Made by a program: the position numbers and the translations under genes
Origin: a virus
Length of the DNA stretch: 47,747 bases
IMG/VR virus record: IMGVR_UViG_3300030104_000089
Location: 1-47,747 of that record
Reading direction: 5' to 3' (one strand)
Part shown: positions 2,682-43,030 of the stretch, in pieces
How the letters are laid out: each line of letters starts with the position of its first letter
Position numbering within the stretch: the stretch's first letter is position 1
The notes under the pieces: generated by a model
What the model was told of the DNA's origin: nothing
Seen by the model: only the letters and a program-made list of their open reading frames with translations
Database searches by the model: none

Positions 2682-3095
2682 GTGCAAAATATGGATAAGA
2701 ATAAAAAAATAGATATCCCAAAACCAGATAGCGTAGAAAAGCCAGAACCTAGTGATGATGTGAAAAGCCAACTACCTATACCTAAAGGTTGGAAAATACT
2801 TATAGCAATGCCTAAAGCATCAGAAACTTATGATGGTGGTATTATCAAACCTGCTCAAAGTAAAGTTGATGAAGAAACCTCTAATATTTGTGGCTATGTT
2901 TTAAAATTAGGAACAGAAGCTTATGCTGATAAAAAAAGATTTCCAACTGGAGCTTGGTGTAAAGAAGGTGATTGGGTAATATTTAGAGCTTATTCAGGTA
3001 CTAGAATGAAAATGTATGGTAAAGAGTTTCGTTTAATTAACGATGATACTGTGGAAGCAGTAGTAGATGATCCAACAGGAGTAGTTAGAGCATGA
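2682..3095 (+). CDS. GroES-like co-chaperonin
   Basis: A 137-residue protein whose residues 31-137 match the Cpn10 fold. PIPKGWKILIAMPKA is the first strand, DGGIIKP (51-57) sits where GroES has its mobile loop and GroEL-binding hydrophobic tripeptide, followed by GYVLKLG, GDWVIFRAYSG and a terminal strand. The family caps host GroEL, and phage versions (T4 gp31 and others) help capsid folding; the position between portal and scaffold fits that role. Residues 1-30 are a Pro/Asp-rich extension not found in host GroES. The start is uncertain: GTG at 2682, or ATG at 2691 three codons later; neither has a strong ribosome site. Confidence 0.8.
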   Translation: MQNMDKNKKIDIPKPDSVEKPEPSDDVKSQLPIPKGWKILIAMPKASETYDGGIIKPAQSKVDEETSNICGYVLKLGTEAYADKKRFPTGAWCKEGDWVIFRAYSGTRMKMYGKEFRLINDDTVEAVVDDPTGVVRA

Positions 3096-11205: not shown

Positions 11206-14200
11206 ATGGCAAGTTCATATGTAAATGATTTAAGATTAAACGAGATGGCTACTGGTGATGCTAGTGGTACATGGGGTGAAACTACAAATACTAATCTTGA
11301 ATTAATAGCAGAAGCTTTTAGTTATGGCACAGAAGCCATTACTACAAATGCTGATACGCATACTAGCACTATAGCTGATGGTGCTACAGACCCTGTTAGG
11401 TCCATGTTTGTTAAATATACAGGCACATTAGATTCTACTTGCACTATAACTATAGGACCTAATACTGTATCTAAATTATGGGTTATAGAAAATGGAACAA
11501 GTGGTTCTCAATCTATAATTATTAAACAAGGTACTGGTGCTACAGTAACAATACCTACTGGTAAAACTAAAGTAGTTTATTCAGATGGAGCAGGTTCTGG
11601 TGCAGCAGTTGTGGATGCTTTTGCTTCTTTAAATTTAGAAACAAGTGGAATTATAGAAAGTAGTTCTTCTATTCAAACACCTCTTATAGAATATACAGAT
11701 GGTGATGATGCCATGACCATAGCAGATGGTGGTGGTGTTACCTTTGCACAAACAGCTACTTTTAGTGGTGATATAGATTTAGCTGGCTCAATAGATGTAG
11801 ATGGCACAGCTAATCTAGATGTAGTAGATATAGACGGAGCTGTAGATATGGCTTCTACATTAGCTGTAGGTGGTGTTGTAACTGCAAACGCAGGTGTAGT
11901 TGTAGATACAATGACACTTGATGGTTCTACGCTTACATCTACAGATGATTTTATTGTTGATGCAGCATCAGATATTAATTTAGATGCAGCAGGGGGTCAA
12001 GTTAGATTAAAAGGCAGTGGTACTACTTATGTAACTTTTAACGTAGATGCAACTCCAGAAATTTTATTAGCTGGTGGTAATTCATTTATAAAAACTTCAA
12101 CATCTGATGCAGACTTGTCATTTATAGGTAATGATGGTGGTTCAGATGTAACAGCCCTTACCCTTGATATGTCAGATGCAGGTACTGCAACTTTTAATCA
12201 CGATGTTTTATTAGGTGATGCAAGTAGAATAAAACTTGGAGCTGGTAATGATTTACAAATTTACCATGATGGTTCAGATAGTTTAATTTTAGATTCTGGT
12301 ACAGGTGATTTAAAAATATTAGGTTCTTCAAATGTAAGATTGCAAAATCAAGGCGATAACCAAGATATGTTAGTTGCAACAAGTGGTGGTGCAGTAGAAC
12401 TGTATCACAATGCTAGTAAAAAAATAGAAACAACAAGTTCAGGTGTAGATGTTACAGGCACAATCAATGGTGCAGGTATCCTAGCCGACACTACTAACTT
12501 TGTAGACAGTATATTAATAAGCCAAGGTGCAAATACAGGTACTTTATCTTCTGCATCGCATAATACAGGGCTAGGAGATAGTGTTTTTAATGCTTTAACT
12601 TCTGGTATAAATAATACTGGGATTGGTGCAGATGCTTTGAAGCAACTGACATCTGGAAATCAAAATACAGTACTAGGTACTGTAGCAGGACAAGCTCTCA
12701 CAACAGGAAGTTTTAATGTATTTATAGGTGATGCAGCTGGAGATGCTGTAACTACAGCAGATAGTAATGTAGCTATTGGACAAAACGCTTTAACTAATAC
12801 TACTACTGGTGCTACAAATACAGCTGTAGGTAGACAAACTTTACAAGCTAATACTACAGCTTCACATAACACAGCTGTTGGTAATCAAAGTCTTTTAAAC
12901 AACACTACAGGTACAAAAAACACAGCTGTTGGTAGTTTAGCTTTAGATGCTAATACAACTGCAGATGCAAATACAGCAATTGGTTATGCTGCTTTAAGTT
13001 CGAACACAACAAACACTAGAAATACTGCTGTAGGTTATCATGCAGGATTAAATGCAATTGCAAACGATAATACTCTTTTTGGTTTTGCAGCAGCAGAGAA
13101 CCTTACAACAGGTAGTAGCAATATAATTATTGGAAGTAAGTCTGGTCAAAATTTAACTGAAGGTAATAACAATATAGTTATGGGTAGTGAAGCATTAGAT
13201 GCTGATACTTTGGGTGATAGAAATATTGCTATTGGTAGTCAAGCATTATCTGCACAAAATTTTACAACAAGCACAGATGTTTATAATGTTGCTGTTGGGC
13301 ATCAAGCAGGAAGCTTAATAACAACAGGTAGTAAAAATACAGCTTTAGGTGGATTAGCATTGCAATCTACTACAACTGGTACAGATAATGTAGGCGTAGG
13401 TTATGGTTCTTTAAATGCAAATACCACAGCCTCAAACAACACAGCAGTAGGCAATAAAGCCTTATTATCAAACACTACAGGTGCTCAAAATACTGCTGTT
13501 GGTGGTAATGCAGCAGATGCTGTTACAACTGGTTCTAACAACACAGCAGTAGGATATGAGTCAGCAGGTAAACTAACAACAGGTACGGATAATGTTGCTA
13601 TAGGTAGAGCAGCTTTACTGGATACTACAACACATAGTGGTAATGTTGCTGTAGGGGTTGAAACTTTAGAAAACAATACAGCTGATGACAATACAGGAGT
13701 TGGTAAACATTCTTTAAGAGCAAATACTACAGGAGCTAATAATGTTGCTATTGGTAGAGATGCTTTATTATCAAACACCACAGCCTCAAACAACACAGCA
13801 ATAGGTCAAGCTGCACTAGATGCTAATACTACAGGTGGTTCTAACGTAGCTGTTGGAAGAGATTCACTTGGTGCTAATACTACAGCAGATGCTAACACAG
13901 CTTTAGGGTATGGTTCTTTAAGAGATAATACAACAGGATCAGCTAATGTAGGTTTAGGGTATTTAGCATTAGAAGAAAATACAACTGGCGGTAATAATGT
14001 AGCAGTGGGTTTTGAAGCTTTAGAAGAAAATACCACAGCTAGTAATAATACGGCAGTAGGTTATCAAGCTATGGCAGCAAACACTACGGGTGCTAGTAAT
14101 ACAGCTGTTGGTTATGCAGCTTTAGACACCAACACTACAGGTGCACAAAATACAGCAGTAGGCTATGCTGCTTTAGACGCCAACACAACAGGTGGTAACA

Positions 14201-15810
14201 ACGTAGCAGTAGGTATGTCTGCACTTGATGCGAATACTACAGCTGACAATAATACAGCTATAGGTTATGAGGCTTTAACTGCTAATACTACAGGTGCTAA
14301 CAATACAGCAGTAGGTTTACAATCTTTAGCAGCAAACACTACAGCGGACAGCAACACGGCAGTTGGTAAAGACTCTTTAAAAACTAACACAACAGGAGCA
14401 CAGAATAGTGCTTTAGGTCATTCTTCCTTAGAACTAAATACTACAGGTAATTACAATGTTGCAGTTGGAGACTTTGCTTTGTATAACAACACCACAGCAA
14501 ATTACAATACAGCAGTCGGTAAAGATGCCTTATTATTAAACACTACAGGAACAGAAAATACAGCAGTTGGTAGTTTATCGTTAGATGCTAACACTACAGG
14601 AGATACAAACGTAGCGTTAGGGTATGCAGCACTTTCAGCTAATACAACAGCAGACCAAAATACTGCTATAGGAGCAGTTGCTTTATTAGCTAATACTACG
14701 GGAGCAGCAAATACTGCTGTAGGTAGAAGTGCTTTAACAGCAAACACTACAGGCACAAGAAACGTAGCAGTTGGAGCTTTATCTCTAGACGCTAATACTA
14801 CAGCTAACGACAATACAGCAATCGGATATGATGCTATGAGTGCTAATACTACTGGTGAAAAAAATGTTGTAGTCGGTACTTATGCTTTTGACGCTAATAC
14901 TACAGGAAGTTTTAATGTTGTTGTAGGTAGAGCTGCATTAAGTTCTAATACTACAGCAGACCACAATACTGCTATAGGTTATCAAGCTTTAGATGTAAAC
15001 ACGACAGGTGCTGAAAATACAGCAGTTGGTTCAGCAGCATTAGATGCTAATACTGTAGGAGAATATAATGTAGCAGTAGGAAGAAATTCTCTTGGTACTA
15101 ACATAGACGGTAGTAGAAGTACAGCAGTCGGATATGCTGCACTAGCAGCACAAGAGCCTGCATCTGCTGCAAATGTAAACAATGTAGCAGTTGGTTTTCA
15201 TGCACTAAATGCAAGTACCACAGGTACTAACAATACAGCTTTAGGTGCTTTAGCAGGTGATGCTATAACAACAGGCTCAAACAATATTATGATTGGTTAT
15301 CAAGCAGAAGTTAGTGCTGCTACAGGAGATAATCAAATATGTATAGGTATTGATATAAATGCTGGTGGAGATAATAATTTTAGTTTTGGTAAAGCAAGTA
15401 ATGTTGTTACTAACGATTTTGATACTGACGCTAATTGGTCTAGAAGTTCAGATATCCGTAAGAAAAGAAATGTTAAAGATGATAATTTAGGTTTATCTTT
15501 TATTAATAATTTAAGACCTGTAACTTTCCAATGGAAACCAAGTAATGAATTTCCTAAAGAATGGAATGAATACAGCGAAGAAAATAACATGAATCTTGAA
15601 GCAATTATGCATGGTATGATTGCACAAGAAGTTAAAGAGGCATTAGATAAAGAAGGTGTTGATACCTTTGCAGGTTGGTCTGTAAACGATGATGGTATGC
15701 AACGTCTTTCAAGAGAGATGTTTGTTACACCTTTAATTAATGCAGTTCAAGAACTGTCTACGCAAGTAGATGAATTAAAAGCCGAAATACAAACTTTAAA
15801 GGAGGAATAA
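11206..15810 (+). CDS. Giant tail fibre with S74 autoprocessing domain
   Basis: A 1534-residue trimeric fibre candidate. The N-terminal ~120 residues are the likely virion-attachment domain. Residues about 150-450 are beta-rich with alternating Asp/Thr/Ala. Residues about 454-1397 contain about 55 tandem 17-residue repeats of the form T-A-V-G-x(2)-A-L-x-x-N-T-T-x-x-x-N, like YadA-head or adhesin beta rolls. From about residue 1410, SDIRKKRN starts a peptidase S74 intramolecular chaperone domain, which trimerises and then cleaves itself off; it ends in a coiled coil. The protein should recognise the host surface. A GAGG ribosome site precedes the start. Confidence 0.9.
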   Translation: MASSYVNDLRLNEMATGDASGTWGETTNTNLELIAEAFSYGTEAITTNADTHTSTIADGATDPVRSMFVKYTGTLDSTCTITIGPNTVSKLWVIENGTSGSQSIIIKQGTGATVTIPTGKTKVVYSDGAGSGAAVVDAFASLNLETSGIIESSSSIQTPLIEYTDGDDAMTIADGGGVTFAQTATFSGDIDLAGSIDVDGTANLDVVDIDGAVDMASTLAVGGVVTANAGVVVDTMTLDGSTLTSTDDFIVDAASDINLDAAGGQVRLKGSGTTYVTFNVDATPEILLAGGNSFIKTSTSDADLSFIGNDGGSDVTALTLDMSDAGTATFNHDVLLGDASRIKLGAGNDLQIYHDGSDSLILDSGTGDLKILGSSNVRLQNQGDNQDMLVATSGGAVELYHNASKKIETTSSGVDVTGTINGAGILADTTNFVDSILISQGANTGTLSSASHNTGLGDSVFNALTSGINNTGIGADALKQLTSGNQNTVLGTVAGQALTTGSFNVFIGDAAGDAVTTADSNVAIGQNALTNTTTGATNTAVGRQTLQANTTASHNTAVGNQSLLNNTTGTKNTAVGSLALDANTTADANTAIGYAALSSNTTNTRNTAVGYHAGLNAIANDNTLFGFAAAENLTTGSSNIIIGSKSGQNLTEGNNNIVMGSEALDADTLGDRNIAIGSQALSAQNFTTSTDVYNVAVGHQAGSLITTGSKNTALGGLALQSTTTGTDNVGVGYGSLNANTTASNNTAVGNKALLSNTTGAQNTAVGGNAADAVTTGSNNTAVGYESAGKLTTGTDNVAIGRAALLDTTTHSGNVAVGVETLENNTADDNTGVGKHSLRANTTGANNVAIGRDALLSNTTASNNTAIGQAALDANTTGGSNVAVGRDSLGANTTADANTALGYGSLRDNTTGSANVGLGYLALEENTTGGNNVAVGFEALEENTTASNNTAVGYQAMAANTTGASNTAVGYAALDTNTTGAQNTAVGYAALDANTTGGNNVAVGMSALDANTTADNNTAIGYEALTANTTGANNTAVGLQSLAANTTADSNTAVGKDSLKTNTTGAQNSALGHSSLELNTTGNYNVAVGDFALYNNTTANYNTAVGKDALLLNTTGTENTAVGSLSLDANTTGDTNVALGYAALSANTTADQNTAIGAVALLANTTGAANTAVGRSALTANTTGTRNVAVGALSLDANTTANDNTAIGYDAMSANTTGEKNVVVGTYAFDANTTGSFNVVVGRAALSSNTTADHNTAIGYQALDVNTTGAENTAVGSAALDANTVGEYNVAVGRNSLGTNIDGSRSTAVGYAALAAQEPASAANVNNVAVGFHALNASTTGTNNTALGALAGDAITTGSNNIMIGYQAEVSAATGDNQICIGIDINAGGDNNFSFGKASNVVTNDFDTDANWSRSSDIRKKRNVKDDNLGLSFINNLRPVTFQWKPSNEFPKEWNEYSEENNMNLEAIMHGMIAQEVKEALDKEGVDTFAGWSVNDDGMQRLSREMFVTPLINAVQELSTQVDELKAEIQTLKEE
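12565..15396 (+). repeat. 51-bp coding repeat array in the tail fibre gene
   Basis: About 55 tandem units of 51 bp encode 17-residue repeats with consensus T/V-A-V/I-G ... A-L ... N-T-T-x-x-x-N. Units vary in nucleotide sequence while the glycine and the NTT/N positions are nearly invariant. A few units are shorter or longer (for example near 13260 and 15150). The array invites recombination and length change, which could alter fibre length or receptor display. Confidence 0.9.
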
Positions 15811-19895: not shown

Positions 19896-20364
19896 AATAC
19901 CTCTACATTACAAAATAGTTATTATTTGGGCATTAACTTTGTTTATTGGAATTACAGCAGAAAATATAAAAGCAGATCAAATAACTTTTAAATTTAAGTC
20001 TCCATCTTTTTCTGGAGTTGGAACTAGCTCACATTATCTTACTATTGAGAATCAAGAGCATATGCGTAAGATGACTATAAAAGAAGAAATAAAAGCATTA
20101 CAAGATGAATTAGAAAGAGATGCTGAGAATACTACATTAGCAAGATTTATAAGAAATTTAGAAAGTCGTATTTATGCACAAATATCCAGACAGATTGTAG
20201 AAAATATGTTTGGTGAAACACAATCAACGGAAGGCACATTTGAACTAGAAGGTAATATCATCTCATATAAAATAGAAGATGGTATGATAATACTAACAAT
20301 TTTTAATACTAATGATGGTACAACAACTGAAATATCTTTGCCTCTCGGGGATTTTTCTTTCTAG
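19876..20364 (+). CDS. csgF: Curli assembly protein CsgF homologue
   Basis: A 162-residue CsgF family protein. In bacteria CsgF is exported, inserts its N-terminus into the CsgG channel and anchors the curlin fibre at the surface. Residues 11-33 form a signal peptide with probable cleavage after Ala33. The mature N-terminus DQITFKFKSPSFSGVG matches the conserved CsgF start (TMTFQFRNPNFGG in E. coli). The C-terminus (NIISYKIEDGMIILTIF to LGDFSF) matches the family's beta domain. The gene overlaps the upstream holin-like gene and the next gene (csgG) by 53 bases. The charged insert at residues 58-85 is longer than in E. coli. Confidence 0.88.
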   Translation: MIKIKNKIPLHYKIVIIWALTLFIGITAENIKADQITFKFKSPSFSGVGTSSHYLTIENQEHMRKMTIKEEIKALQDELERDAENTTLARFIRNLESRIYAQISRQIVENMFGETQSTEGTFELEGNIISYKIEDGMIILTIFNTNDGTTTEISLPLGDFSF

Positions 20365-21124
20365 TTGCAGTCTTATAGATGTAGTTAGAGAAACAAATCC
20401 AAAAACCTTAAATTTAGAAGGTAGAGAAACTTTTAGTATCTATGATCTACAATCAAAAGATTTAGCAAATATACAACCACCTTTAGTAAAACCAGTTGTA
20501 GCTGTATATCCTACTGCATTTACTGATCAAACAGGACAAAGAAAAAGTAATAGTGAGTTTGCTATGTTTTCATCAGCAATAACACAAGCACCAAATACTA
20601 TACTTATAAGGTCATTAAAACACGCTTCAGATGGAAATTTTTTTCGTGTAGTAGAAAGAGTAGGACTTGATAATCTTACAAAAGAAAGACAACTTATAAG
20701 ATCAACGAGAGAACAATTAGATGATCAAAGCATCTTATCACCTTTACTTTTTGCAGGTGTATTGTTAGAAGGTGCAGTTGTATCTTATGATAGTAATATA
20801 TCTACTGGCGGAATAGGTGCAAGATATTTAGGCATTGGCTCTAGTATGCAGTATAGAGAAGATTCTGTTAGTGTAAGTTTGCGAATGGTATCAGTAGCAA
20901 CAGGTGAAATATTAATAGAAGTTATGTCGCAAAAAATAATATATAGTTATGGACAGTCTCAGGATGTCTTTAAATTTATAGAAATGGGAACTGAGCTTGT
21001 AGAGGTAGAAATAGGTTCTGCCTCGAATGAGAGTACTACTTTAGCTTTAATGAAAGCTATTGAGGGTGCAGTTTTACAACTTATAAATATAGGGTACGAG
21101 AGAGGGTACTGGAAATATGAATAA
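20312..21124 (+). CDS. csgG: Curli secretion channel CsgG homologue
   Basis: A 270-residue CsgG family lipoprotein. In bacteria nine CsgG subunits form an outer-membrane channel that secretes unfolded curlins. The N-terminus is a lipoprotein signal with lipobox L16-S17-S18-Cys19. Conserved segments include VAVYPTAFTDQTGQ (64-77), the GGIGARYLGIG loop (166-176) and SVSLRMVSVATGEIL (187-201), which align closely with E. coli CsgG. At the pore constriction Phe86 aligns with E. coli Phe56, while positions matching Tyr51 and Asn55 are Ser81 and Met85. The start overlaps csgF by 53 bases; a second Met follows directly. Confidence 0.92.
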   Translation: MMVQQLKYLCLSGIFLSSCSLIDVVRETNPKTLNLEGRETFSIYDLQSKDLANIQPPLVKPVVAVYPTAFTDQTGQRKSNSEFAMFSSAITQAPNTILIRSLKHASDGNFFRVVERVGLDNLTKERQLIRSTREQLDDQSILSPLLFAGVLLEGAVVSYDSNISTGGIGARYLGIGSSMQYREDSVSVSLRMVSVATGEILIEVMSQKIIYSYGQSQDVFKFIEMGTELVEVEIGSASNESTTLALMKAIEGAVLQLINIGYERGYWKYE

Positions 21125-21842
21125 ATTATTAAATATTTTTTTATTTTTATCATTGTCTGTTTTTGCAGATAATGAAATATATGTAGATCAGTCAGGCAAT
21201 TCAGCTACCATTGATTTAGAACAACTTGGGTCATCAAACTTAATAGGTGGAACACAAGCTACATCTGGAACAATGACTGCTTTAGACCTTGATGGTGTGT
21301 CAATGACACTTGACATTAATCAAATAGGTAGTTCTAACATATTTAGATCAGATGCTATTGATGGTGATAATTTTACTGGGTATTTTGAGTGGAATGGTGA
21401 CTCTAATATTATGGATATACTTATGAATAGCACAGGTCTTATAAGTGCTGATTATGTAAATCTTAATATTGATGTTACAGGTTCAAGCAATGAATTTGAT
21501 TTATCTATAGCAGAAAATGCTGATTCTTCTTATCTTGATTTAGACTGGGTTATTTTAGGTGATAGCAATGTTTTAGATTTTGATATTGATTATGAAAATG
21601 CAATTAATTATCTTGATATCAATGGAAGTTCAAATGCGATAGATTTTACAGCTAGTGGGTATTCAGGAACAACATCTGCTGATTCTGGATATTTTTACCT
21701 AGATTTAGATGGGAGTTCAAATGATATTGATATTACGCAATCATCTACACTTGCAAGGGATTATCTTAAAATTATTAGCAATACTTCTAATTCCAATATT
21801 TGTGTCGTTCAAGACGATCAAGGCACAACCACAGGATGTTAA
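21117..21842 (+). CDS. Secreted curlin-like repeat protein
   Basis: A 241-residue exported protein with a signal peptide (residues 1-17, cleavage after SVFA). The mature part has about nine imperfect curlin-type repeats centred on x-G-[SD]-S-N: QSGNSA, QLGSSN, QIGSSN, NGDSN, TGSSN, LGDSN, NGSSN, DGSSN and TSNSN. Only the first three keep the curlin Gln before Gly. The protein is Asp-rich and Lys-poor, predicted beta-solenoid, and ends in an isolated Cys. Its place directly after csgF and csgG (8-nt overlap) argues that it is their secretion substrate. The last 122 bases also encode the start of the next gene in another frame. Confidence 0.8.
   Translation: MNKLLNIFLFLSLSVFADNEIYVDQSGNSATIDLEQLGSSNLIGGTQATSGTMTALDLDGVSMTLDINQIGSSNIFRSDAIDGDNFTGYFEWNGDSNIMDILMNSTGLISADYVNLNIDVTGSSNEFDLSIAENADSSYLDLDWVILGDSNVLDFDIDYENAINYLDINGSSNAIDFTASGYSGTTSADSGYFYLDLDGSSNDIDITQSSTLARDYLKIISNTSNSNICVVQDDQGTTTGC
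21711..21715 (+). promoter_or_regulatory. Ribosome site for the FecR gene inside the curlin gene
   Basis: GGGAG lies 5 bases before ATG at 21721. The same bases encode Gly-Ser of a curlin repeat (GSSN) in the upstream gene's frame. This site favours the 21721 start over the ATG at 21709. Confidence 0.5.
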
Positions 21843-22872
21843 TATTGGAGACATATCTGAACTAAGAGGTAATGCACAAATAGTAAGGGATAAACCCTTA
21901 GATGCTTTTGTAGATTTTGATATACAAAGCAATGATGAAGCCATAACTTCTAATGGTCGTATGGCTATAACATTTCTTGATGATTCTACAGTTAGACTTA
22001 CAGAACACAGTCAATTGTTAATAGACGAGTATATATATGATCCAGACCCAAGCAAATCTAAAATGGCACTTACATTTGCTATTGGAACAACTAGATTTAT
22101 TTCTGGGAATATAGATAAACTTAATAAAAAGAATATATCTTTAAAAACTCCTACTGCTAATATAGCTATTAGAGGAACAGATTTTACAGCTACAGTAAAT
22201 GAATTAGGTGAATCATTAATAATACTTTTACCAGATCAATATGGATTATCTAGTGGAGAAATAGAGGTAATAACAGCAACAGGAAGTGTCATACTAAATA
22301 AACCTTTTGAAGCTACTACTGTATCTGTATTTGAAAATGCACCAAGTAAACCAGTAGTATTAGATTTATCTCTTGATTTAATTGATAACATATTAATAGT
22401 ATCACCACCCAAAGAAAAAGAATTAAAACAAGAAGAAGTTGTTGCACAGTCAAATACTATTTTAGATTTTAATGATCTTGATATAGATTATTTAGAAGAA
22501 GATTTTTTAGATAATGAAGCTGATTTAGAATTTACTGAACTTGATATTAATTATTTAGATGTTAATTTTTTAGAAGATTTATTAGATGTTCTTGATGAAT
22601 TAAATATACAAGAAGAACAGGATCAATTACAAGCAGATGTATCATCCATAGCTATTTCAGGAACTAAATTTGGTCAAGATTTAGACACTCAGATTACTAC
22701 TTTTATTACAGGTGAAAAACTTACTATATTAAGAAGTGTAAATAATACAGCAAGGGTTGATATAGATTCAGATGGTAGCTATACAGTAATTTTAATACAA
22801 GATGGTGTTTCAAGAACTATTAAGATAAATGGTGGCAGTAGTAGTATTATAAGAATTAAACAGGAAAGCTAA
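21721..22872 (+). CDS. Secreted FecR-domain protein
   Basis: A protein of about 383 residues. Residues 1-35 look like a signal peptide (hydrophobic core about 18-30, cleavage after TIKA). A FecR domain follows (about 55-160), with MAITFLDDSTVRLTEHS and the family hallmark KTPTANIAIRGTDF (142-155). Residues 240-295 are an acidic Asp/Leu repeat region (DLDIDYLEEDFL, ELDINYLDVNFL), and residues about 300-383 a second beta domain. FecR domains act in the periplasm as signal relays. The next gene begins in its TAATG stop, so it probably partners the CHASE2 cyclase. Any start after the curlin stop would remove the signal peptide. Confidence 0.82.
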   Translation: MILILRNHLHLQGIILKLLAILLIPIFVSFKTIKAQPQDVNIGDISELRGNAQIVRDKPLDAFVDFDIQSNDEAITSNGRMAITFLDDSTVRLTEHSQLLIDEYIYDPDPSKSKMALTFAIGTTRFISGNIDKLNKKNISLKTPTANIAIRGTDFTATVNELGESLIILLPDQYGLSSGEIEVITATGSVILNKPFEATTVSVFENAPSKPVVLDLSLDLIDNILIVSPPKEKELKQEEVVAQSNTILDFNDLDIDYLEEDFLDNEADLEFTELDINYLDVNFLEDLLDVLDELNIQEEQDQLQADVSSIAISGTKFGQDLDTQITTFITGEKLTILRSVNNTARVDIDSDGSYTVILIQDGVSRTIKINGGSSSIIRIKQES

Positions 22873-24614
22873 TGAAAAAACTAATATTGCCTATAGTTAT
22901 ATTATTGTTATTGCCATTAATATATCAGTCAACGCCAACAGAAATATTAAAACTTAGAGTGTATGACACTTTTATAAAAACACCAGAACCATCAGGAAAC
23001 TTTGTAATATTAAATATAACTGAAGAAGATGTAGAGGTTGAAGGTGGTTATCCTTTGCCAAGACAAAGACTTGCAGAAATAAATATAGAGTTATTAGCTA
23101 AAGGTGCTATAGGAGTTGGTTGGGCAATATCATTTCCACAAGCTGATAGATTTGGTGGTGATAAAGATTTTGCTAGATCGCTTGGTTATGCACCTTCAGT
23201 AATAGCTATGTTTGAGGATGGTAAAGGTAATTATCCTAAACCTACAGGGACAGTAGTGAAAGGCGAAGATAATGGTGGTATAGTAAGTTTGGGAGTTAAG
23301 GAAAACCTGAACACTCTTACAGATAATACATTGCAGGGTCTAGCCATTGCTCCCACTGAAGTAGACCAACTTGTAAGAAGAATACCTCTTTTAGTTAAAA
23401 CTCCAGAAAATCAATGGATTCCTAGTTTTGGCACACAAATATATAAATCAATATTTGATGTTAAAACATACATTATAAAAACTAGTGATAATGGTATAGA
23501 GGAAATATCAATACGAGGAATACCACCTGTTAAAACAGATACTTTAGGTCGTAAATGGATTAGTTGGGTAGATACACCACAAACAGATTTACAAGAAATG
23601 GATGTTAATGGAAAGTTTGTTATTGTTGGCGTTACTGCAGCTGGTGTTATGCCACAGATAGCAACACCTGTGGGTTTATTAGAGCCACATAAAATACAAG
23701 CTGCATTAGCAGAATCTATTTTAATACAAGATAGTCCTTATATTCCTGACTGGCATTTAGCTGTTGAATTATTAATTCTAGTGATAACAGTAACTTTTGT
23801 TTGGTTTTTAATAAATATTTTTGGAATAACGCTAGGAATAACATTTACCAGTCTATTATTTTTATTAACAATATTTTCTGGATACTATTTAATACAGCGT
23901 GGAATACTTATAGATGTTAGTTGGACTTTAATATCTCAATTTATAACTGCTTCTATAGGTTTCTATTTACGATTTAGAGAACAATACAAACTAAGACAAC
24001 AAATTAAAAAACAATTTGAACACTATCTTGATCCAAGACAAGTTAAAAAACTACAAGATGATCCAAGTTCTTTAGTATTAGGTGGAGAACGTAGATATTG
24101 CACGTTTTTATTTACAGATGTAAGAGGATTTACTTCTATGTCTGAAAAATTAGAACCTGAAGAAGTAACAAATATAATGAATAAAGCTTTAACAATACAA
24201 GCAGATGCAGTTAAAAAGTATGGTGGTATGGTAGATAAATATATTGGTGATGCAATGATGGCTATATTTAATGCTCCAATAGACTTAGAAGAACATGAAA
24301 CTGTTGCTGTTAATTGTGCTAAAGAAATACAAGATAATATAAAACAAGCAAATTTAGGTGTTGAAATTGGCATAGGTGTTAATACTGGATATGCTGTTGT
24401 AGGCAATATGGGAAGCGAAACAAGGTTTGATTATACAGCTATAGGTGATGCTGTTAATCTTGCAGCTAGATTAGAAAGCTCTACTAAAGAAGTCGGAGAA
24501 GATATAGTCATAGGTTATTCTACAAAGAAAGAATGTAAACATAAGTTAAAGTTATTAAAACCAATATCTGTTAAAGGTAAACAAAAAAAGGTAACAATAT
24601 ATACATGGAATTAA
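22872..24614 (+). CDS. CHASE2 sensor-adenylate cyclase
   Basis: A 580-residue membrane enzyme. Residues 2-19 are a membrane helix, 20-295 a periplasmic CHASE2 sensor domain, and about 298-365 three membrane helices. Residues 400-580 are a class III nucleotide cyclase domain. Metal-binding Asp416 (LFTDVRGF) and Asp460 (YIGDAMMAIF) are present, as are the base-selecting pair Lys456/Thr522, as in Lys/Thr adenylate cyclases, and transition-state residues Asn529 and Arg533. It should make cAMP in the host cytoplasm in response to an envelope signal. The start shares a base with the FecR stop, indicating 1:1 coupling with that partner. Confidence 0.92.
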   Translation: MKKLILPIVILLLLPLIYQSTPTEILKLRVYDTFIKTPEPSGNFVILNITEEDVEVEGGYPLPRQRLAEINIELLAKGAIGVGWAISFPQADRFGGDKDFARSLGYAPSVIAMFEDGKGNYPKPTGTVVKGEDNGGIVSLGVKENLNTLTDNTLQGLAIAPTEVDQLVRRIPLLVKTPENQWIPSFGTQIYKSIFDVKTYIIKTSDNGIEEISIRGIPPVKTDTLGRKWISWVDTPQTDLQEMDVNGKFVIVGVTAAGVMPQIATPVGLLEPHKIQAALAESILIQDSPYIPDWHLAVELLILVITVTFVWFLINIFGITLGITFTSLLFLLTIFSGYYLIQRGILIDVSWTLISQFITASIGFYLRFREQYKLRQQIKKQFEHYLDPRQVKKLQDDPSSLVLGGERRYCTFLFTDVRGFTSMSEKLEPEEVTNIMNKALTIQADAVKKYGGMVDKYIGDAMMAIFNAPIDLEEHETVAVNCAKEIQDNIKQANLGVEIGIGVNTGYAVVGNMGSETRFDYTAIGDAVNLAARLESSTKEVGEDIVIGYSTKKECKHKLKLLKPISVKGKQKKVTIYTWN

Positions 24615-34885: not shown

Positions 34886-37800
34886 ATGACTGAATATGAT
34901 ATTGGTGGTGGGGAAAAAATACAAATCCCAGATAATTTAGATGCTGAGACAAGACTAAAATTAGCTGAAGTTATAAAAGATGAATATGGAATAGATATAA
35001 ATCAAACATCAGCACTAGAACAAGCAAAAGAATTTGGTAAAGCGATACCTAGAGGTATTGCTAGTTTAGCTTTAGATGTGCCTACAGGTATTGTTGGTTT
35101 ATTTGATATTGGCAACGATAGTAACTTATATAAAGGTCTTGAAGGTTTACAAGATAGACTAAGACAAGATTCTGTATTAGCAGCAGACCCACGATATGCT
35201 GATAAATTTTCTACAAAACTAGGAGAAGGCGTAGGATCGTTTGTTCCTTTCTTAGGTGCAGGTATGGTAGGTAGAGCTCTAGCAAAGGCACCAGGAGCAG
35301 CTAAAGGCTTTTTATCACCAACATTTACAGCACCAACAGCTTTAGCAATACCAACAGGTATAGCAGCACAAGGCGATAGACTGCAGATGGCTAGAGAGAT
35401 GGGTGAAGATGTAAGTGGTCTTACTGAAACTACTGCTGAATTATTTGGTGGTCTTATAGGTATAACTGAAGTAGTGCCTATTGCTAGTATATTAGGTAAA
35501 GTTCACAAAAACGCACCATTATCTTATAAAGAACAATTAGTATCAGCATTACAATCAGGAGCTCTTGAAGGTGGTCAAGAAGTTCTTGCTTCAGTATTAC
35601 AAGATGGTGTAGCAAGAGGTCTTTATAGTGAAGATTTACCTATGGCTGATAGTATGTTTGAAGAATTTACTATTGGTGGCATTATTGGTGGTGCTGCTGA
35701 TTTAGTTGTTACTAGCATGGCTGGTAAACAGTCTGCAAGAAGAAAACGATTAGAAGAAGATAATTTAAGGTCCCAAGAAAATAAAGAAAAATTAATACTT
35801 GCTAAAAAACAAAAACAAGCTGTTCAGCAAGGTGTACTTGAAGAAATGCAAGACATACCATCTGTTACAGTTCCACAATTAATACCAGAAGAAGAACTAG
35901 GACCAGAACCATCTGTAGAAGTTATAGTTACACCACAAGAACAATTTGCTGTTGTTGATATTAGTAATCCTGAAGCTCCAGTACAAATTGATATAAAAGA
36001 AAAAGAAATAGATGCTATTAAAAAAAGAGATGAAATAACAAAAAATTATAATTTTAAAAAGTTAAAATCAAAATTAGATAACGATACTTATAACTTAGGA
36101 TTAATTAATAGTAAAGCTGCTTATGATTTAGGACAAAGTTTAGAAGATAACAGAGCTAGTGGTGTATCTATTCAAGATTTAATTGATAGTGTGCCTAAAG
36201 ATTCTAAACAAGAGGTAAATCTTAGAGGTTTAGTAAATGGTTTTGTTGCACAAAATCCAGGTAAGACATCTCGTAGTTATCCTAGATTATCTATGGCAGA
36301 AGCTAAAAAATTATTAACTGCAAAACAATTTAATGAATTTACATCTGCAGTTGCACAAGGAGCATTTACACATTCTGAAAATAATGGCAAACCTTCTATT
36401 ATTGCAGATAAAGATACAATAGATACATCAGCTAAATATGTAAAAGAAATAGCTGCATCTAAAAATATAGATTTAAACTTTCAATCACCTGCTGTTCAAT
36501 ATGCAGCAGAAAAATACACAGGTACTCCTGAATTCAGTAAGATGAAGAAAGGTCAAAAAGAATTATTTTTGGCTAGAATTCATGCACTTTCTCCGTTCAA
36601 TTCAAGAACAACTTTCCCAGACTTTAGACCAAGAAACTATACTGCACAAGAAATGGCAGATTTTGTTGCTAATGCAAAAAGCAACAATATTATTTTTGAT
36701 AAAAATACTTTATTAAAAGTTGGACCAGATTCTATTAGAAAAAATGAGGTTGCTACAAAACAATTTATAGATGATTTAATTTATAGTGGCAGAGCTCAAC
36801 AAGTAGAAGGCACTAATAATTATAAGATTAGAGATAACTTTGAGTTTGATATAGCTAGAAAAGCAGAAGGGTTTAATGAGACACCAGAGGAATTTGGTGC
36901 AAGACTTACTGCAGAAGGTGTATTACCTGCAGAAACTATTGCAGATTTAGTAGAAAAAGAAAGAACGAATCAAGAAAATTTATTACCACCTGTAGAGATA
37001 GAACCTAAATTTATTAACTATGCTGAGACTTTGCAAGAAGGTAAGGTTAGCAAGTTTGCAAAAGAACTTAGAAAAAGATTAGATGGCGTTGGTTTAAAAG
37101 ATACTGGTATTGTTGTAAGTGATGACATAATTTCTACTACTACATTAAGGAGAGTAGATGGAGAAATAAAGTATGATCCAAGAAGATTAATTGATCCTAG
37201 AACTGGTGATAAAGCTAGAGGAGAATATGATAAAAATACAGATACTATATTTATATCTTTAAATGCAGTTAATCCTGATGGTGGTGCTACAGAAGTAGAG
37301 ATAATAGAGAGACTTAGAGGTGTATTAGACCATGAGATGATTCACGCTCTTAGAGCAAAAGATTTAATTACTGAAGCAGAATATCAATATCTTAAAAAAC
37401 AAGTAGAACAACAAAAAGTTCCTAATACTAATACTACTTTTCTTGCACAAGCACAAGGTACTTATTCAGATATTGCTGCAAAAACAAGAACATCAGCAGA
37501 AGCTACAGAATTTCTTTACGAGGAAGCTATAGCAGAACTATTTAGAAAGAAAGATTTATTGGTTAATACTCCTCCTAAAGTAGATGGCATCTTTAATAAG
37601 ATAATTCAGTTCTTTAAAACTGCAGGACAAGCAATGCGTAGCTCAGGCTACAAGAGTGCTACAGAAATATTTAATAATATAGAATCTGGCAGGGTTGGTG
37701 CAAGAGAGAGAGGAGTTGTGCGAACTACAAGACTTGTAGATAAGGGTCTTATTCCTGCTAATTTTCTTACAACAGAAGAACGAGATGAAGTTATAAGAAC

Positions 37801-40800
37801 ACCAGAGCCAATTCCTGGTGATGAGATAAGACAAACTATAGGACCTAAGGGTATAAGACCTAAAGCTGTACCAAAACGCAAACGAACAGGAACTACTAAA
37901 CCACCTGCATCAACAGGTCCTGCTACTCCACCTACTACACCTACAACTATTTATAATTCTCGTACATTATCTAATGCACAATATAATTCTGAAAGAGAAA
38001 AAATAATTAAAGGTTTACAAGATGCAAAAATATTAGATAAAGATGTTTTTGATAAAGATGGTAATGTAACTAAAACTATTAAAGGTAATAATGATTCTGT
38101 AAAAATGATGAAGTGGTTAATAGATAATTCACCAAGTCAAGATTATAAAATTATTGCACAGAAAGTTCATAAATCTTTATTAGCATTAAAAAAACAAGGT
38201 AGATCATTTCCTTTAAATTTTAAAGTAGGAGATACAAATGGTTTAACAGGGCGTATTAGAGGTCAAATTAGTCCTAGTGGTAAAGAAGATAAATTTGGTC
38301 AACCTTTTACTTATTCTATGTCGTTAAATGATGATGGCAAAGGATTTAATTCTGTTCCATTGGCTAGAGATCAAGCTTATAAAGATTGGAAATCAAAAAA
38401 TGGTGTAAATTTTGAAACTATATTACATGAAAGCATACATCAAGCTACTTTAGCTCAAATTTATGCTGCATCAGGTAGTCCAAGTATACTAGCTAAATTA
38501 TCTCCTGATGGTGGTTCTAAAGCACTAAAAGCACAAAAAGAATTAAGAAATCAAGCTAATAGAATTAAAAATCATTACAGAAGTAAGATGAGATTCTATG
38601 AAGATTTATCAGATAAAATACTTCAAGATGTTAGCACTGGTGATCAGACAAACTTAGAAATATATAAAGAGGCTTATGCTAAAGCTCCTGAAATAGAAAA
38701 AACAATAGCAGATATATATATACGAGAATATAGTGATGGAATTATTACTAGAACAGAAAGTGGTTTAAGAAAAGATAGAAAAAGAAATTTTGAAAATTAT
38801 CATATTAAATATCAGTTATATGGTCAACAACCTCAAAATAGAGGTGATGTTTCAGAACTATTAACATTTGGTTTAACTAATAGAAATTTTCAAGAAATGC
38901 TTGAATCTATACCATTAGGTAAAGATGCTACTGATAATTTATGGAATAAATTTGTAGAAGTAATTAGAGAATTATTAGCTGTGCCTGCAAAACTTAATAC
39001 AGAATTATCTGCATTTCTTAAAAATGCTTCTACAGTATTAGACTTACAAACAACTGGCATAAATCTTGATACAAGAGATGTTAGAGATGTGCCTCTATTT
39101 AGTAGACCACCAAGAGATGAATCATCTGGTCATGTAGCTGATGGTGTGCCTGCACAATATGGTCCACCTGCACATGACTTAAATGCAAAACCTAGTCAAG
39201 AAGAATTTACTCCTGAAGGTTATTCTACTTTTGATGTGACTGTAGATTACAATCGATTGAGAGAGTACAGCACAGCTAGACCTCAAGAAAGAGCTGAAGA
39301 ACAAAGATTTTTGAATAAATTAAAACAAATTAAAGGTAATCCAAATGCAGAAATAACTATGTATCAAGCTGCACCACAAAGAGATTTAAGAGAAGGAGAT
39401 TTAATAACTCCATTCTTAAGTGAAGCTGAAGCTCTTGTAGAAGATTCTAAAGTTACACAACAAGAAATTAGAGATGCAGAATTACAACAACTTAAACAAG
39501 ATTTAGGTTTAGATAAAGACACAACACCAAATATTAATTTGGTTAAATATTACAATGAAAGAAAAAAAATGTATTCTCAAATGGATGGCATTATGGATGT
39601 ATTTGGTGCACCTCAAACAACTCCATCAAAAATACATACTTTTAAATTAAAAGCAGGTGATGTTCGTTGGGATGGTAATAATGGTTGGGCACGATGGGGT
39701 TATTTCCCATCAAAAGTAAAAGATATAAGTGGAGATATACCTACCTTTAGTAGAGCACCAAGTAGATTTCCAACAACACAAGAACAAATAAATAATGCCT
39801 CTCAACAATTATTAGAAGATAGTCTTAGCTATTATAATAATTTAGTAGAAAAAACAGAAAAAGAATTATTCCAAGATGTATTAAGACCTGATGAAAGAAC
39901 TACTCTTGAAAGAAGGCGTTATAATGCAGAAGCTGTTGTTGCTAAAACAGAAAGAAGATTAGAAGAATTACGAACTGGCACAGGACAGTTACCTTTATTT
40001 AGTAGAAAAAGGAGAGATGATACAGGCACAAACTCACAAGAAAATATACAATTAAGAGAAGCTTTAGAAGAAGCCGAAGAAACAGTTAAACAGACACCTA
40101 GGGGTTCAATACCTTATTACAATTTAAACGCCTCAGATACAGCCTTAAAGGCTGCTATAGACTTTAATAGAGACCTATCTGCTACAGCACCAGATGATAT
40201 ACCTAAATTTTCAAGACCTACACTTGATGGATTAGATAATAATTTACAAGAGTTTATTAAAAGAACAGGTGGAGAAGTATTGCCTGATCAATCTTGGGGT
40301 GCAAGGTTAATAGAAATTGTTAAAGACCCTATAACAGCTATTAAAAACTTTTTTATTAATTTTAGACAAAGATATATTGACCAATATGATGATCCTACTA
40401 AAACAATATTAGCAGGTAAAACTACAGAATGGTATTTAGGAATAGATGAAAGAACAGATAAATTAAGAATAAATCCTAAAACTAAAAAACCTTGGACACA
40501 AGAAGAAGCTGAAATAGCAGCAAAAGATGTAACACTTGCTAATATGTTTGCAAATACAGGTGCAGAACAATCATTAAGAATGTCTGATAAATCAAGAGGT
40601 GTATTTCAAGGTATGCTTACAAGAGGTATTGCTGTTGATCAGATAGATGATGTTGATTCATTAGTAAAAACAATACCTTTAGAGCTTGTTGATGCTGATG
40701 GCAATAAAACTGGAAAAACAGGTGGTCTTATACAAATACTTGCACCATTATTTTCTAATGTTGATGTTAATTTAGAGGCTGTTTTTAAAAGTTATGCCAT

Positions 40801-43030
40801 ATTAAAAAGAGCAAAAAATCTTGATGAAAGTGGTAGAGAAATAGATACACCTGTGCAACCTAATGACTATGCTCTTATAGAACAAATAGAACAGCAACAC
40901 CCAGAAGTAGTAGAGGTTTATCGTAATTATCAAAATTGGAATAATTCTTTAATTCAACTTGCAGAAAGAAAAGGTATTTTAAGTACAGAACAATCTGCAT
41001 TATGGAGAGAACATTCTGTTTATTATCCTTTTTATAGACAAATGGTTGATGATAGTGGTATTAAAGGACCTGCAATCGCAGGTGGTTCACTACCAGGAAA
41101 TCCATTAGATATAAAGATAGAAGGTTCAGAAGAAATTATTGATGCAGACCCAATAGAAGCTATATCAAGAAACTCATTATCTATTCTTACAGCATCACTA
41201 AAAAATGATGCTATGGGTAAAATAGTTAAAAATTTAGAAACAATGGGATTGGCTAAATCAATATCTGCAAAAGATGCAGGTAAAGCTGATAGTTTATTTT
41301 TCTTTGAGAATGGCATTAAAAGGCATTATCAAGTAGATGATCCTAGACTGGTCTATGGTTTACAAAATATTGGTGGAGTAGCTCCAGGTGCTATAGGAAA
41401 ATTTTTAGCAATACCAGCAGGGCTTCTTAGAGATACAGTTACAAGAGACCCAGGCTTTGTTGTTATAAATATTTTAAGAGATACCTTATCTTCTGCTGTA
41501 ACAAGTGGTGCACCATATACACCTATTATTGATTCAGTTAAAAATATGTTTGGCAGCATGGAAGAATTAGAGCAGTTTGGTGTGCTTGGTGGTTATGATT
41601 ATTCTATTGATGAAGGTAGTGTAAAACAATTTATTACTAAAACAATGAGACAACAAGGATTAACACCAAATAATGCAATGTCTCCTACAGGTGCTTTCTT
41701 TAAATTATGGGATGGTCTTGGAGCACTTACCACTAAATCTGATGGTGCAACTCGTAAAGCAGTTTATGATGTTGTTTATAAACAACTAAAAGAAGATGGT
41801 TATTCTGAAGCAGTAGCACAATCAGAAGCAGCTTATCAGGCACAAGAAATAATTAATTTTGGAAGGCGTGGGTCTGATCCATTATTTAGAATTATTACTG
41901 CTGCAATACCATTTTTAAATGCAAGAATACAAGGTCTTGATGTATTGCATAGAGGATTAACTGGTAAATATTCTGCTGTAGAAAAACAACAGATGGGAGA
42001 ATCACTAAAAGAAGTGCAATCAAGGATACTTAGAAGAACAGCTTTAAATGCTTCTTTACTTGTAGGTCTAACAGCACTTTACTATATGATGGTAAGTGAT
42101 ACAGATGAATATAAAAATCTTAAACGAGAAGTAAGAGATGATAACTGGATATTTCCAACACCATTTGATTATGCAATTAAGATACCAATACCATTTGAAG
42201 TAGGTATGTTATTTAAAGCTATACCTGAAAGAGTATTTGATATGACTATGGGAGATGATGCTTTTACAAGAAAGTCTGTTGATGAAGCTTTAACATCTAT
42301 TGAAAGACAGGTTAGTACATCTTTTAATATTCCATTTTTAGGTCCTGGTTCTGGAATACAATTATTAAAGCCAATAGCAGAAGTAATGAATAATAGAAAT
42401 ACTTTTACTGATACAGAAATTGTACCTTATTATCAACAACAAAAAGAACCTGGATTACAAGCAAGGGCAACTACCAATGAATTTGCAAGAATATTAGGTG
42501 AATCACTTAATATTTCACCTGCAAAGATAGAACACATAATGAGAGGTTATACAGGAACTCTTGGTGGATATGTGTTAGCTGTTATAGATACTATCACTAG
42601 AGGAGCTACAGGAAGTCCTCTACTACCTTCTAACTTTGAATTATCAAAGATGCCTGTATTTAATAGACTATTACTTGATTTAGATAAGTCTGGTGGCTAT
42701 CAGCAACAATTCTATGAGCTAAGAGGTGAGGTTGACAGGGCAGTAGCAACTATCAACTCGCTACAGAAACAACAACGATTTGATGAGCTATCAGCTTACA
42801 GAAGCAATATGCAAGGCGTGTTGAATGTCAAAGGTCAAGTAAGAGCGATTGAGAGATACTTAGACAACTGGAGAAAGCGTAGAGATAGACTGATGAGAGA
42901 TGAGAACATATCTGTATCAGTTAAGTCAGATATGCTTCGTGAACTAGAGCTAGAAAGAGATATGAGACTAGCTATGGTGCCAGAACTAAGAAAGAGAGCT
43001 AATATACCTGTTCTAAGCCTTAACCTTTAA
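34886..43030 (+). CDS. Giant polyvalent virion protein with two HExxH motifs
   Basis: A 2714-residue protein. Residues 1-300 are Gly/Ala-rich and partly hydrophobic. A first zincin motif HEMIH lies at 816-820, and a second, HESIH, at 1181-1185, each in a helix typical of metallopeptidases. Residues about 1440-1610 (ITMYQAAP, GDLITPFLSEAEA, ARWGYFP) resemble the ADP-ribosyltransferase-like domains of phage polyvalent proteins. The C-terminal ~450 residues contain ITAAIPFLNARIQGLDVL and a basic helical tail, like large polyvalent-protein domain LPD38. Such proteins are packaged and injected to act on the host early in infection. It is the last plus-strand gene. Confidence 0.75.
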   Translation: MTEYDIGGGEKIQIPDNLDAETRLKLAEVIKDEYGIDINQTSALEQAKEFGKAIPRGIASLALDVPTGIVGLFDIGNDSNLYKGLEGLQDRLRQDSVLAADPRYADKFSTKLGEGVGSFVPFLGAGMVGRALAKAPGAAKGFLSPTFTAPTALAIPTGIAAQGDRLQMAREMGEDVSGLTETTAELFGGLIGITEVVPIASILGKVHKNAPLSYKEQLVSALQSGALEGGQEVLASVLQDGVARGLYSEDLPMADSMFEEFTIGGIIGGAADLVVTSMAGKQSARRKRLEEDNLRSQENKEKLILAKKQKQAVQQGVLEEMQDIPSVTVPQLIPEEELGPEPSVEVIVTPQEQFAVVDISNPEAPVQIDIKEKEIDAIKKRDEITKNYNFKKLKSKLDNDTYNLGLINSKAAYDLGQSLEDNRASGVSIQDLIDSVPKDSKQEVNLRGLVNGFVAQNPGKTSRSYPRLSMAEAKKLLTAKQFNEFTSAVAQGAFTHSENNGKPSIIADKDTIDTSAKYVKEIAASKNIDLNFQSPAVQYAAEKYTGTPEFSKMKKGQKELFLARIHALSPFNSRTTFPDFRPRNYTAQEMADFVANAKSNNIIFDKNTLLKVGPDSIRKNEVATKQFIDDLIYSGRAQQVEGTNNYKIRDNFEFDIARKAEGFNETPEEFGARLTAEGVLPAETIADLVEKERTNQENLLPPVEIEPKFINYAETLQEGKVSKFAKELRKRLDGVGLKDTGIVVSDDIISTTTLRRVDGEIKYDPRRLIDPRTGDKARGEYDKNTDTIFISLNAVNPDGGATEVEIIERLRGVLDHEMIHALRAKDLITEAEYQYLKKQVEQQKVPNTNTTFLAQAQGTYSDIAAKTRTSAEATEFLYEEAIAELFRKKDLLVNTPPKVDGIFNKIIQFFKTAGQAMRSSGYKSATEIFNNIESGRVGARERGVVRTTRLVDKGLIPANFLTTEERDEVIRTPEPIPGDEIRQTIGPKGIRPKAVPKRKRTGTTKPPASTGPATPPTTPTTIYNSRTLSNAQYNSEREKIIKGLQDAKILDKDVFDKDGNVTKTIKGNNDSVKMMKWLIDNSPSQDYKIIAQKVHKSLLALKKQGRSFPLNFKVGDTNGLTGRIRGQISPSGKEDKFGQPFTYSMSLNDDGKGFNSVPLARDQAYKDWKSKNGVNFETILHESIHQATLAQIYAASGSPSILAKLSPDGGSKALKAQKELRNQANRIKNHYRSKMRFYEDLSDKILQDVSTGDQTNLEIYKEAYAKAPEIEKTIADIYIREYSDGIITRTESGLRKDRKRNFENYHIKYQLYGQQPQNRGDVSELLTFGLTNRNFQEMLESIPLGKDATDNLWNKFVEVIRELLAVPAKLNTELSAFLKNASTVLDLQTTGINLDTRDVRDVPLFSRPPRDESSGHVADGVPAQYGPPAHDLNAKPSQEEFTPEGYSTFDVTVDYNRLREYSTARPQERAEEQRFLNKLKQIKGNPNAEITMYQAAPQRDLREGDLITPFLSEAEALVEDSKVTQQEIRDAELQQLKQDLGLDKDTTPNINLVKYYNERKKMYSQMDGIMDVFGAPQTTPSKIHTFKLKAGDVRWDGNNGWARWGYFPSKVKDISGDIPTFSRAPSRFPTTQEQINNASQQLLEDSLSYYNNLVEKTEKELFQDVLRPDERTTLERRRYNAEAVVAKTERRLEELRTGTGQLPLFSRKRRDDTGTNSQENIQLREALEEAEETVKQTPRGSIPYYNLNASDTALKAAIDFNRDLSATAPDDIPKFSRPTLDGLDNNLQEFIKRTGGEVLPDQSWGARLIEIVKDPITAIKNFFINFRQRYIDQYDDPTKTILAGKTTEWYLGIDERTDKLRINPKTKKPWTQEEAEIAAKDVTLANMFANTGAEQSLRMSDKSRGVFQGMLTRGIAVDQIDDVDSLVKTIPLELVDADGNKTGKTGGLIQILAPLFSNVDVNLEAVFKSYAILKRAKNLDESGREIDTPVQPNDYALIEQIEQQHPEVVEVYRNYQNWNNSLIQLAERKGILSTEQSALWREHSVYYPFYRQMVDDSGIKGPAIAGGSLPGNPLDIKIEGSEEIIDADPIEAISRNSLSILTASLKNDAMGKIVKNLETMGLAKSISAKDAGKADSLFFFENGIKRHYQVDDPRLVYGLQNIGGVAPGAIGKFLAIPAGLLRDTVTRDPGFVVINILRDTLSSAVTSGAPYTPIIDSVKNMFGSMEELEQFGVLGGYDYSIDEGSVKQFITKTMRQQGLTPNNAMSPTGAFFKLWDGLGALTTKSDGATRKAVYDVVYKQLKEDGYSEAVAQSEAAYQAQEIINFGRRGSDPLFRIITAAIPFLNARIQGLDVLHRGLTGKYSAVEKQQMGESLKEVQSRILRRTALNASLLVGLTALYYMMVSDTDEYKNLKREVRDDNWIFPTPFDYAIKIPIPFEVGMLFKAIPERVFDMTMGDDAFTRKSVDEALTSIERQVSTSFNIPFLGPGSGIQLLKPIAEVMNNRNTFTDTEIVPYYQQQKEPGLQARATTNEFARILGESLNISPAKIEHIMRGYTGTLGGYVLAVIDTITRGATGSPLLPSNFELSKMPVFNRLLLDLDKSGGYQQQFYELRGEVDRAVATINSLQKQQRFDELSAYRSNMQGVLNVKGQVRAIERYLDNWRKRRDRLMRDENISVSVKSDMLRELELERDMRLAMVPELRKRANIPVLSLNL

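Follow-up and report, generated by a model that had tools for sequence, protein, structure and literature searches.

The window, that is, the whole stretch of DNA analysed here (47,747 nucleotides), is a portion of a 48,257-base virus record (IMGVR_UViG_3300030104_000089) whose source is a marine virus infecting bacteria; its capsid protein shares 62-64% identity with its counterparts in pelagiphages HTVC023P and HTVC027P and 71% with cyanophage records. The plus strand carries a structural cassette (portal, GroES, capsid and virion proteins), with the GroES-like co-chaperonin (phrog_3188) at 2682-3095 (+); the last gene of this cassette, at 34886-43030, has an ATG start and zero internal stops and encodes the 2714-residue protein considered here (Table 1). 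Elsewhere the window encodes a 1534-aa protein with TAVGYxAL-type repeats and a Peptidase_S74 chaperone domain at its end (11206-15810, +), a 2OG-Fe(II) oxygenase (PF13759; 16144-16839, +) and, at 20312-24614 (+), CsgG (PF03783, E=1e-48), a curlin-repeat-like protein, FecR and a CHASE2-adenylate cyclase, which make up a phage curli (T8SS) cassette as already described in pelagiphages (PMC9599517).

The 2714-residue product is an LPD38-type phage polyvalent protein and as such of an already known kind: a very large chain with an LPD domain of the phage type, in which at least two unrelated domains are joined (here two zincins, LPD38 and an ART-like module, with 16 module types in relatives). 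LPD38, near the C-terminal end, is its one clear Pfam domain (122 bits against a cut-off of 27). PHROGs matches fall in the C part only, and 52 annotated phage records match the protein, among the matches listed in the C part only and at 22-28% identity. The N-terminal frame contains a glycine-rich hydrophobic stretch at about residues 110-275. The extreme C-terminal end (42995-43027, +) reads NIPVLSLNL in the window and NIPIFSLNL in several relatives, and resembles the core of the junction tag described below.

Table 1. Features of the polyvalent-protein gene, with residues of the product, positions in the window and basis of the assignment.
Feature	Residues	Positions	Strand	Basis or remark
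Whole ORF, LPD38-type polyvalent protein	1-2714	34886..43030	+	ATG start, ORF call, Pfam, PHROGs
Constant N-terminal frame	1-689	34886..36952	+	conserved among relatives, used for trees
Zincin 1 domain	690-960	36953..37765	+	alignments A1 and A6, AF2 secondary structure
HEMIH, zincin 1 active-site motif	816-820	37331..37345	+	motif scan; intact in 47/54 relatives
E880, candidate third zinc ligand of zincin 1	880	37523..37525	+	co-loss with HExxH
Zincin 2 domain, optional in family	1028-1400	37967..39085	+	alignment A2, 9sfn_G profile, phrog_2206
HESIH, zincin 2 motif	1181-1185	38426..38440	+	motif scan, alignment A2
E1324, candidate third ligand of zincin 2, in SELLTFGLT	1324	38855..38857	+	invariant in alignment A2
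Tag DVPLFSR	1401-1407	39086..39106	+	
Module G, ART-like candidate	1408-1623	39107..39754	+	alignments A4 and A7, AF2
Tag DIPTFSR	1617-1623	39734..39754	+	
Module C, helical spacer	1624-1707	39755..40006	+	type 2, 14 copies
Tag QLPLFSR	1701-1707	39986..40006	+	
Module A, last before C part, contains PRGSIPYYNLNASD	1708-1777	40007..40216	+	type 0, 26 copies
Tag DIPKFSR, C-part junction used in co-loss test	1771-1777	40196..40216	+	
Constant C-terminal frame	1778-2714	40217..43027	+	alignment A3
LPD38 domain	2407-2578	42104..42619	+	Pfam PF18857, E=3.9e-35

The original prediction had placed two HExxH motifs in this chain, and both lie exactly where it put them (HEMIH, 816-820; HESIH, 1181-1185); in shuffled versions of the protein HExxH occurs 0.008 times on average, and two were never reached in 2000 trials. 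Both motifs are conserved in homologues, the first in 47 of the 54 relatives that are readable both there and at the junction with the C part, the second in those relatives with a zincin 2 that were read (the corresponding region of L150 fails to align to a zincin). The third zinc ligand that the prediction had proposed to seek has a conserved downstream Glu as its candidate in each domain: E1324 in zincin 2 and, in zincin 1, the helix YEEAIAELF (E879/E880/E884). In the other seven of the 54 relatives the HE of the first motif is replaced by GQ, AQ, GN or GD, and in all seven E880, which is E in the intact relatives, has become S, N or D; this co-loss points to E880 as a candidate for the third ligand of zincin 1.

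Zincin 1 is found throughout the protein family, its active site destroyed in these seven members. The alignments and the AF2 model, which covers both zincins (mean pLDDT 69), place strands, HExxH helix and Glu helix in this order, with HExxH on a helix and Glu on a later helix, as expected of a zincin. Structure prediction by domain, suggested as a check at the outset, recovers the helix order of zincin 1, without a significant PDB match in Foldseek either for the zincin pair (none under E=0.1; a weak one to the zincin-like 3e11 at E=3.1) or for module G (none at E <= 0.001; mean pLDDT 71). Searches of zincin 1 with Pfam and tblastn gave no match, at E<1 it is absent from 50,697 annotated phage records, cultured phages included, and hhalign detects no similarity between zincin 1 and zincin 2.

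Zincin 2 combines HExxH and a downstream Glu with homology to known zincin-bearing families. Its profile finds chain G of 9sfn in the PDB (E=4.2e-19), where the aligned sequence is gp37, an internal virion protein of LUZ19-like Pseudomonas phages, and where VKELVAWGLTD matches the E1324 segment; it also matches 21 of the 46 members of phrog_2206 (virion RNA polymerase; best 6.3e-15), and its structure finds an internal core protein (E=1.4e-7) and a Vibrio virion RNA polymerase (E=2.2e-4) in BFVD. The phiKMV/LUZ19-type gp37 (9sfn_G) shares with the window protein a homologous zincin-2 region, with HEAVH and KELVAWGLTD, whereas gp37 has 1337 aa and the homology is confined to this region; N4-type virion RNA polymerase (phrog_2206) likewise carries a zincin-2-type domain in a giant ejected protein (PMC12633501), whereas no polymerase match was found in the window protein. 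This homology of zincin 2 with the zincin region of both internal virion proteins and virion RNA polymerases, solved and annotated, makes ejection along with the DNA the natural reading for the protein; its place as last gene of the structural cassette, together with this kinship to internal virion proteins, provides the context for packaging. Two peptidase domains in one such protein, a combination called uncommon in the prediction, are not very rare: Iyer et al. (2017) report MPTase domains in about 36% of polyvalent proteins, with more than one in about 8% of that subset (PMC5512222).

Scans of IMG/VR yielded 19 loci that encode the protein entirely or in large part, 59 with zincin 1 and 75 with the N block, many of these loci lying on the same contigs; full-length relatives have about 2230 to 3250 aa. 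The scan of bacterial-genome contigs returned a single locus (L186), on an 8.9 kb contig of a Candidatus Pelagibacter MAG, with zincin 1 intact and tags present, which is a weak hint as to the host. Across relatives it is the middle that varies: it forms a rack of modules that can replace one another, flanked by a constant N block (residues 1-960) and a constant C part (1778-2714), with zincin 1 and usually also zincin 2 on the N-terminal side. The whole of zincin 2 is missing in about ten relatives (L010, L014, L050, L069, L071, L081-L083 and others), in which tags are still present.

Nearly all module junctions of the rack bear a short tag, D-[ILV]-P-x-F-S-R (consensus [DEQ]-[ILV]-P-x-F-S-R); split at this tag, the family proteins give 125 internal modules, with 16 recurrent types. 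Among 70 tags from the relatives found first, the positions P, F, S and R hardly vary, and the flanks are poorly conserved. Four tags are observed in the window against 0.0045 expected from shuffles, none of the consensus type were found in its other ORFs, and every one of the 129 strict tags counted across the family follows zincin 1 in the chain. Selection on the tags acts at the protein level: the Ser is retained whether its codon is TCN or AGY, and F, Y and W alternate at the aromatic position. L053, which has no FSR, is no exception, as it carries PLFSK and DIPNWSK. In both AF2 models (zincins, module G) the tag regions are of very low confidence, as for linkers, and the tags apparently sit in unstructured linkers. 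Distant LPD38 phages have no tags in series; a single LPDVTFSR is found in Vibrio D274.

Modules of the same type occur beside different neighbours and in very different frames. Module 1 of L083 and L052 is 97.6% identical, and module 4 of the same pair 94%, where the N parts are 40% identical; module 7 of L058 and L077 is 93.7% identical (N parts 42%), and module 12 of L082 and L032 93.1% (N parts 37%). Near-identical modules in frames that are only about 40% identical have thus been exchanged between these frames, together with their tags. The last module before the C part is an instance of strong conservation, its stretch PRGxIPxYNxNASD being retained even in tag-less proteins.

Candidate identities of the modules rest on inspection by eye and on weak profile matches. 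Module 9, the module H of relatives, matches ART-PolyVal (PF18760) at E=1.8e-4, with 22.7 bits against a cut-off of 31.2; module 14 has a GNAT-like profile match (E=0.058); module 5 looks ParB-like by eye, with a HEGRHR pattern; module 1 shows, again by eye, the letters R, STT and ExE, like those of R-S-E ARTs; and module 6 is perhaps another ART type. Neither for module 1 nor for module 5 did a sequence profile find a relative of solved structure. The HEGRH of module E was considered as a third zincin and rejected; it has a ParB-type look by pattern only, and PDB and Pfam gave no support.

The ADP-ribosyltransferase-like segment of the original prediction exists, as module G, with its putative catalytic letters replaced and its fold without a PDB match. 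Module G is present in 17 proteins and in two subtypes, MYR/ITPS/LERWGY and MYQ/ITPF/WARWGY; the window copy is of the MYQ/ITPF/WAR subtype, in which Q, F and A take the place of the putative R, S and E that are present in the copies of L006, L018, L050 and L088. Because the three letters change together and are kept within the subtype, the Q-F-A form is a stable variant rather than a fresh decay, and it is perhaps non-catalytic. Comparison by hhalign with modules 1 and 9 gave no significant similarity, and in the absence of a solved-fold match the ART label itself is unproven.

The tags and the zincin 1 active site are lost jointly. Of the 47 proteins whose zincin 1 is intact, 46 have the tag core [ILVM]-P-x-[FYW]-S at the C-part junction, and of the seven whose zincin 1 is destroyed none has it (23/24 against 0/7 when the same proteins are grouped into 31 clusters at 85% N-part identity); at the junction preceding module A the tag is found in 29 of 40 proteins of the intact group and 0 of 6 of the destroyed one. 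The exception is L083, which has zincin 1 intact and DIPTFLK at the C-part junction, with tags elsewhere; its near relative L081 has DIPTFSK. L088, with zincin 1 destroyed, retains a module G with the R-S-E letters and has lost both tags flanking it. Zincin 2 was considered as cutter of the tags and rejected, since it is intact in all seven zincin-1-dead proteins and tags are kept in proteins that have no zincin 2. Five of the seven dead proteins are alike and two belong to another set; the tree, which holds four of them (L111, L115 and L173 were added later, outside it), requires two independent losses of the zincin-1 site, a single clade being rejected by an AU test made after the group had been seen (p=0.012). 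The association therefore rests on two events, and the protein counts overstate it. In evolutionary terms, zincin 1 seems to behave as a partner of the junction tags, as in processing.

We put it at slightly better than even that the ejected protein is a rack that dices itself, being cut at its tags, most likely by zincin 1. The constant N part, with zincin 1 and usually zincin 2, and the constant C part, with LPD38, would hold between them modules exchangeable between frames (ART-like, ParB-like, GNAT-like, coiled-coil and other domains), each ending in a tag; zincin 1, which we infer cuts, or once cut, at the tags to free the modules, would do so as the particle assembles, in the virion or once injected, yielding separate effectors, and zincin 2 would serve some other purpose, as it does in internal core proteins and virion RNA polymerases. 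The chain would be packaged and injected and zincin 1 would bind zinc; cleavage, the exact bond that would be cut and what becomes of the pieces are likewise conjectural. Against this stand the fold of zincin 1, with neither a Pfam match nor a PDB Foldseek match under E=0.1; the zincin-bearing N4 virion RNA polymerase, reported to be packaged unprocessed (PMC5512222); tags of a related form, DIRYSR, that end domains in other giant phage ORFs, some of them without HExxH in the part available; the dependence on two independent losses only; and the DIPTFLK of L083 despite its intact zincin 1. The similar tags in giant ORFs without HExxH, together with the few modules carried by zincin-1-dead proteins, would also suit another protease, of phage or host, that cuts the tags while zincin 1 does something else; lineages without a working zincin 1 would then have abandoned the cut rack altogether. 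We consider this unlikely, as two independent losses couple zincin 1 with the tags while zincin 2 stays, L088 retains its module and not the tags, and no separate head maturation protease is evident among the part of the window ORFs scanned, the capsid gene matching only the capsid half of capsid/maturation-protease fusions.

That a single conserved peptide recurs at module ends could also mean that it is a docking peptide, held by zincin 1 for packing or chaperoning the huge chain through the portal, rather than a cleavage site. Several zincin-1-dead proteins are 46-58% identical to one another and to the reference L075 over the N block; the destroyed zincin 1 is otherwise retained in sequence, so that the domain would have a structural role too. 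The letters lost, however, are the catalytic ones, HE of HExxH and E880, and the tags go with them, whereas binding alone needs none of these, which makes docking a distinctly improbable account. A tag that is mainly a recombination linker, a short shared DNA for module swaps with no protein role, would fit the alike DNA at many tags (TTTAGTAGA) and the swapping of modules exactly at tags, but it is harder still to credit: the amino acids of the C-part junction are kept while Ser codons and aromatic residue vary, and the joint loss with the zincin-1 active site is left unexplained. Lowest of all we rate the earlier reading, in which a single injected chain combines two zincin effectors with an active ADP-ribosyltransferase. 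Of the multi-enzyme effector it described, the giant phage protein with two conserved zincin-type motifs stands, and module H of relatives matches ART-PolyVal (PF18760) at E=1.8e-4, below the curated cut-off; zincin 1, however, tracks the tags, and in the module G of the window the putative R, S and E are replaced by Q, F and A, two findings that already weaken this reading; the module also has no solved-fold match.

Tags of the DIRYSR kind extend beyond the family. DNA patterns for DIRYSR have 79 matches in IMG/VR, 15 of them in frame in ORFs of at least 800 aa that look polyvalent by eye; in several giant ORFs the tag directly follows an ART-PolyVal-like end (e.g. QVKSATANVGTFDPADSDIRYSR), and it stands at domain ends in L106-L108, L192, L195, L198-L200, L203 and others. 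HExxH is absent from the available part of several of these ORFs and from L195 (2491 aa, both ends intact); the tag is therefore not always paired with an HExxH zincin in the same chain, and the cutter for DIRYSR ORFs, if any, need not share the chain. Tags like these may indicate where modules end in polyvalent proteins generally. The broader proposal, that phages use a rack in which an in-chain zincin cuts [DEQ]-[ILV]-P-x-[FYW]-S-R, into which any tagged module can be plugged and whose tag code is widespread (DIRYSR being related), we hold tentatively, at somewhat less than an even chance. Polymorphic toxins with autoproteolytic release offer a parallel to the proposed rack, with a fixed frame, exchangeable effector domains and release by an in-chain peptidase; they carry a single C-terminal toxin, whereas the phage protein has several internal modules in series.

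Neither tag was found mentioned in the open-access literature searched. Processing of polyvalent proteins by zincins was predicted on general grounds by Iyer et al. (2017; PMC5512222), and the LPD38 group described there resembles the window protein in its giant chain, unrelated domains, zincin MPTases, LPD38 and ART-, ParB- and GNAT-type modules; FSR, YSR and linker are unmentioned in that paper, and no junction tag, fixed frame with swappable rack, or joint loss of tag and active site was found in it. These three features set the family apart from the proteins described there, and what is new relative to known polyvalent proteins is, from the comparison of relatives, the tagged, swappable rack and the apparent evolutionary link between tag and zincin 1. 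Because no site was named, the processing idea was not directly testable; the tag gives sites, the natural losses make zincin 1 the probable cutter, and the ends of modules become readable from sequence. If this is true, the effectors of many uncultured phages would be parsable into single functional pieces.
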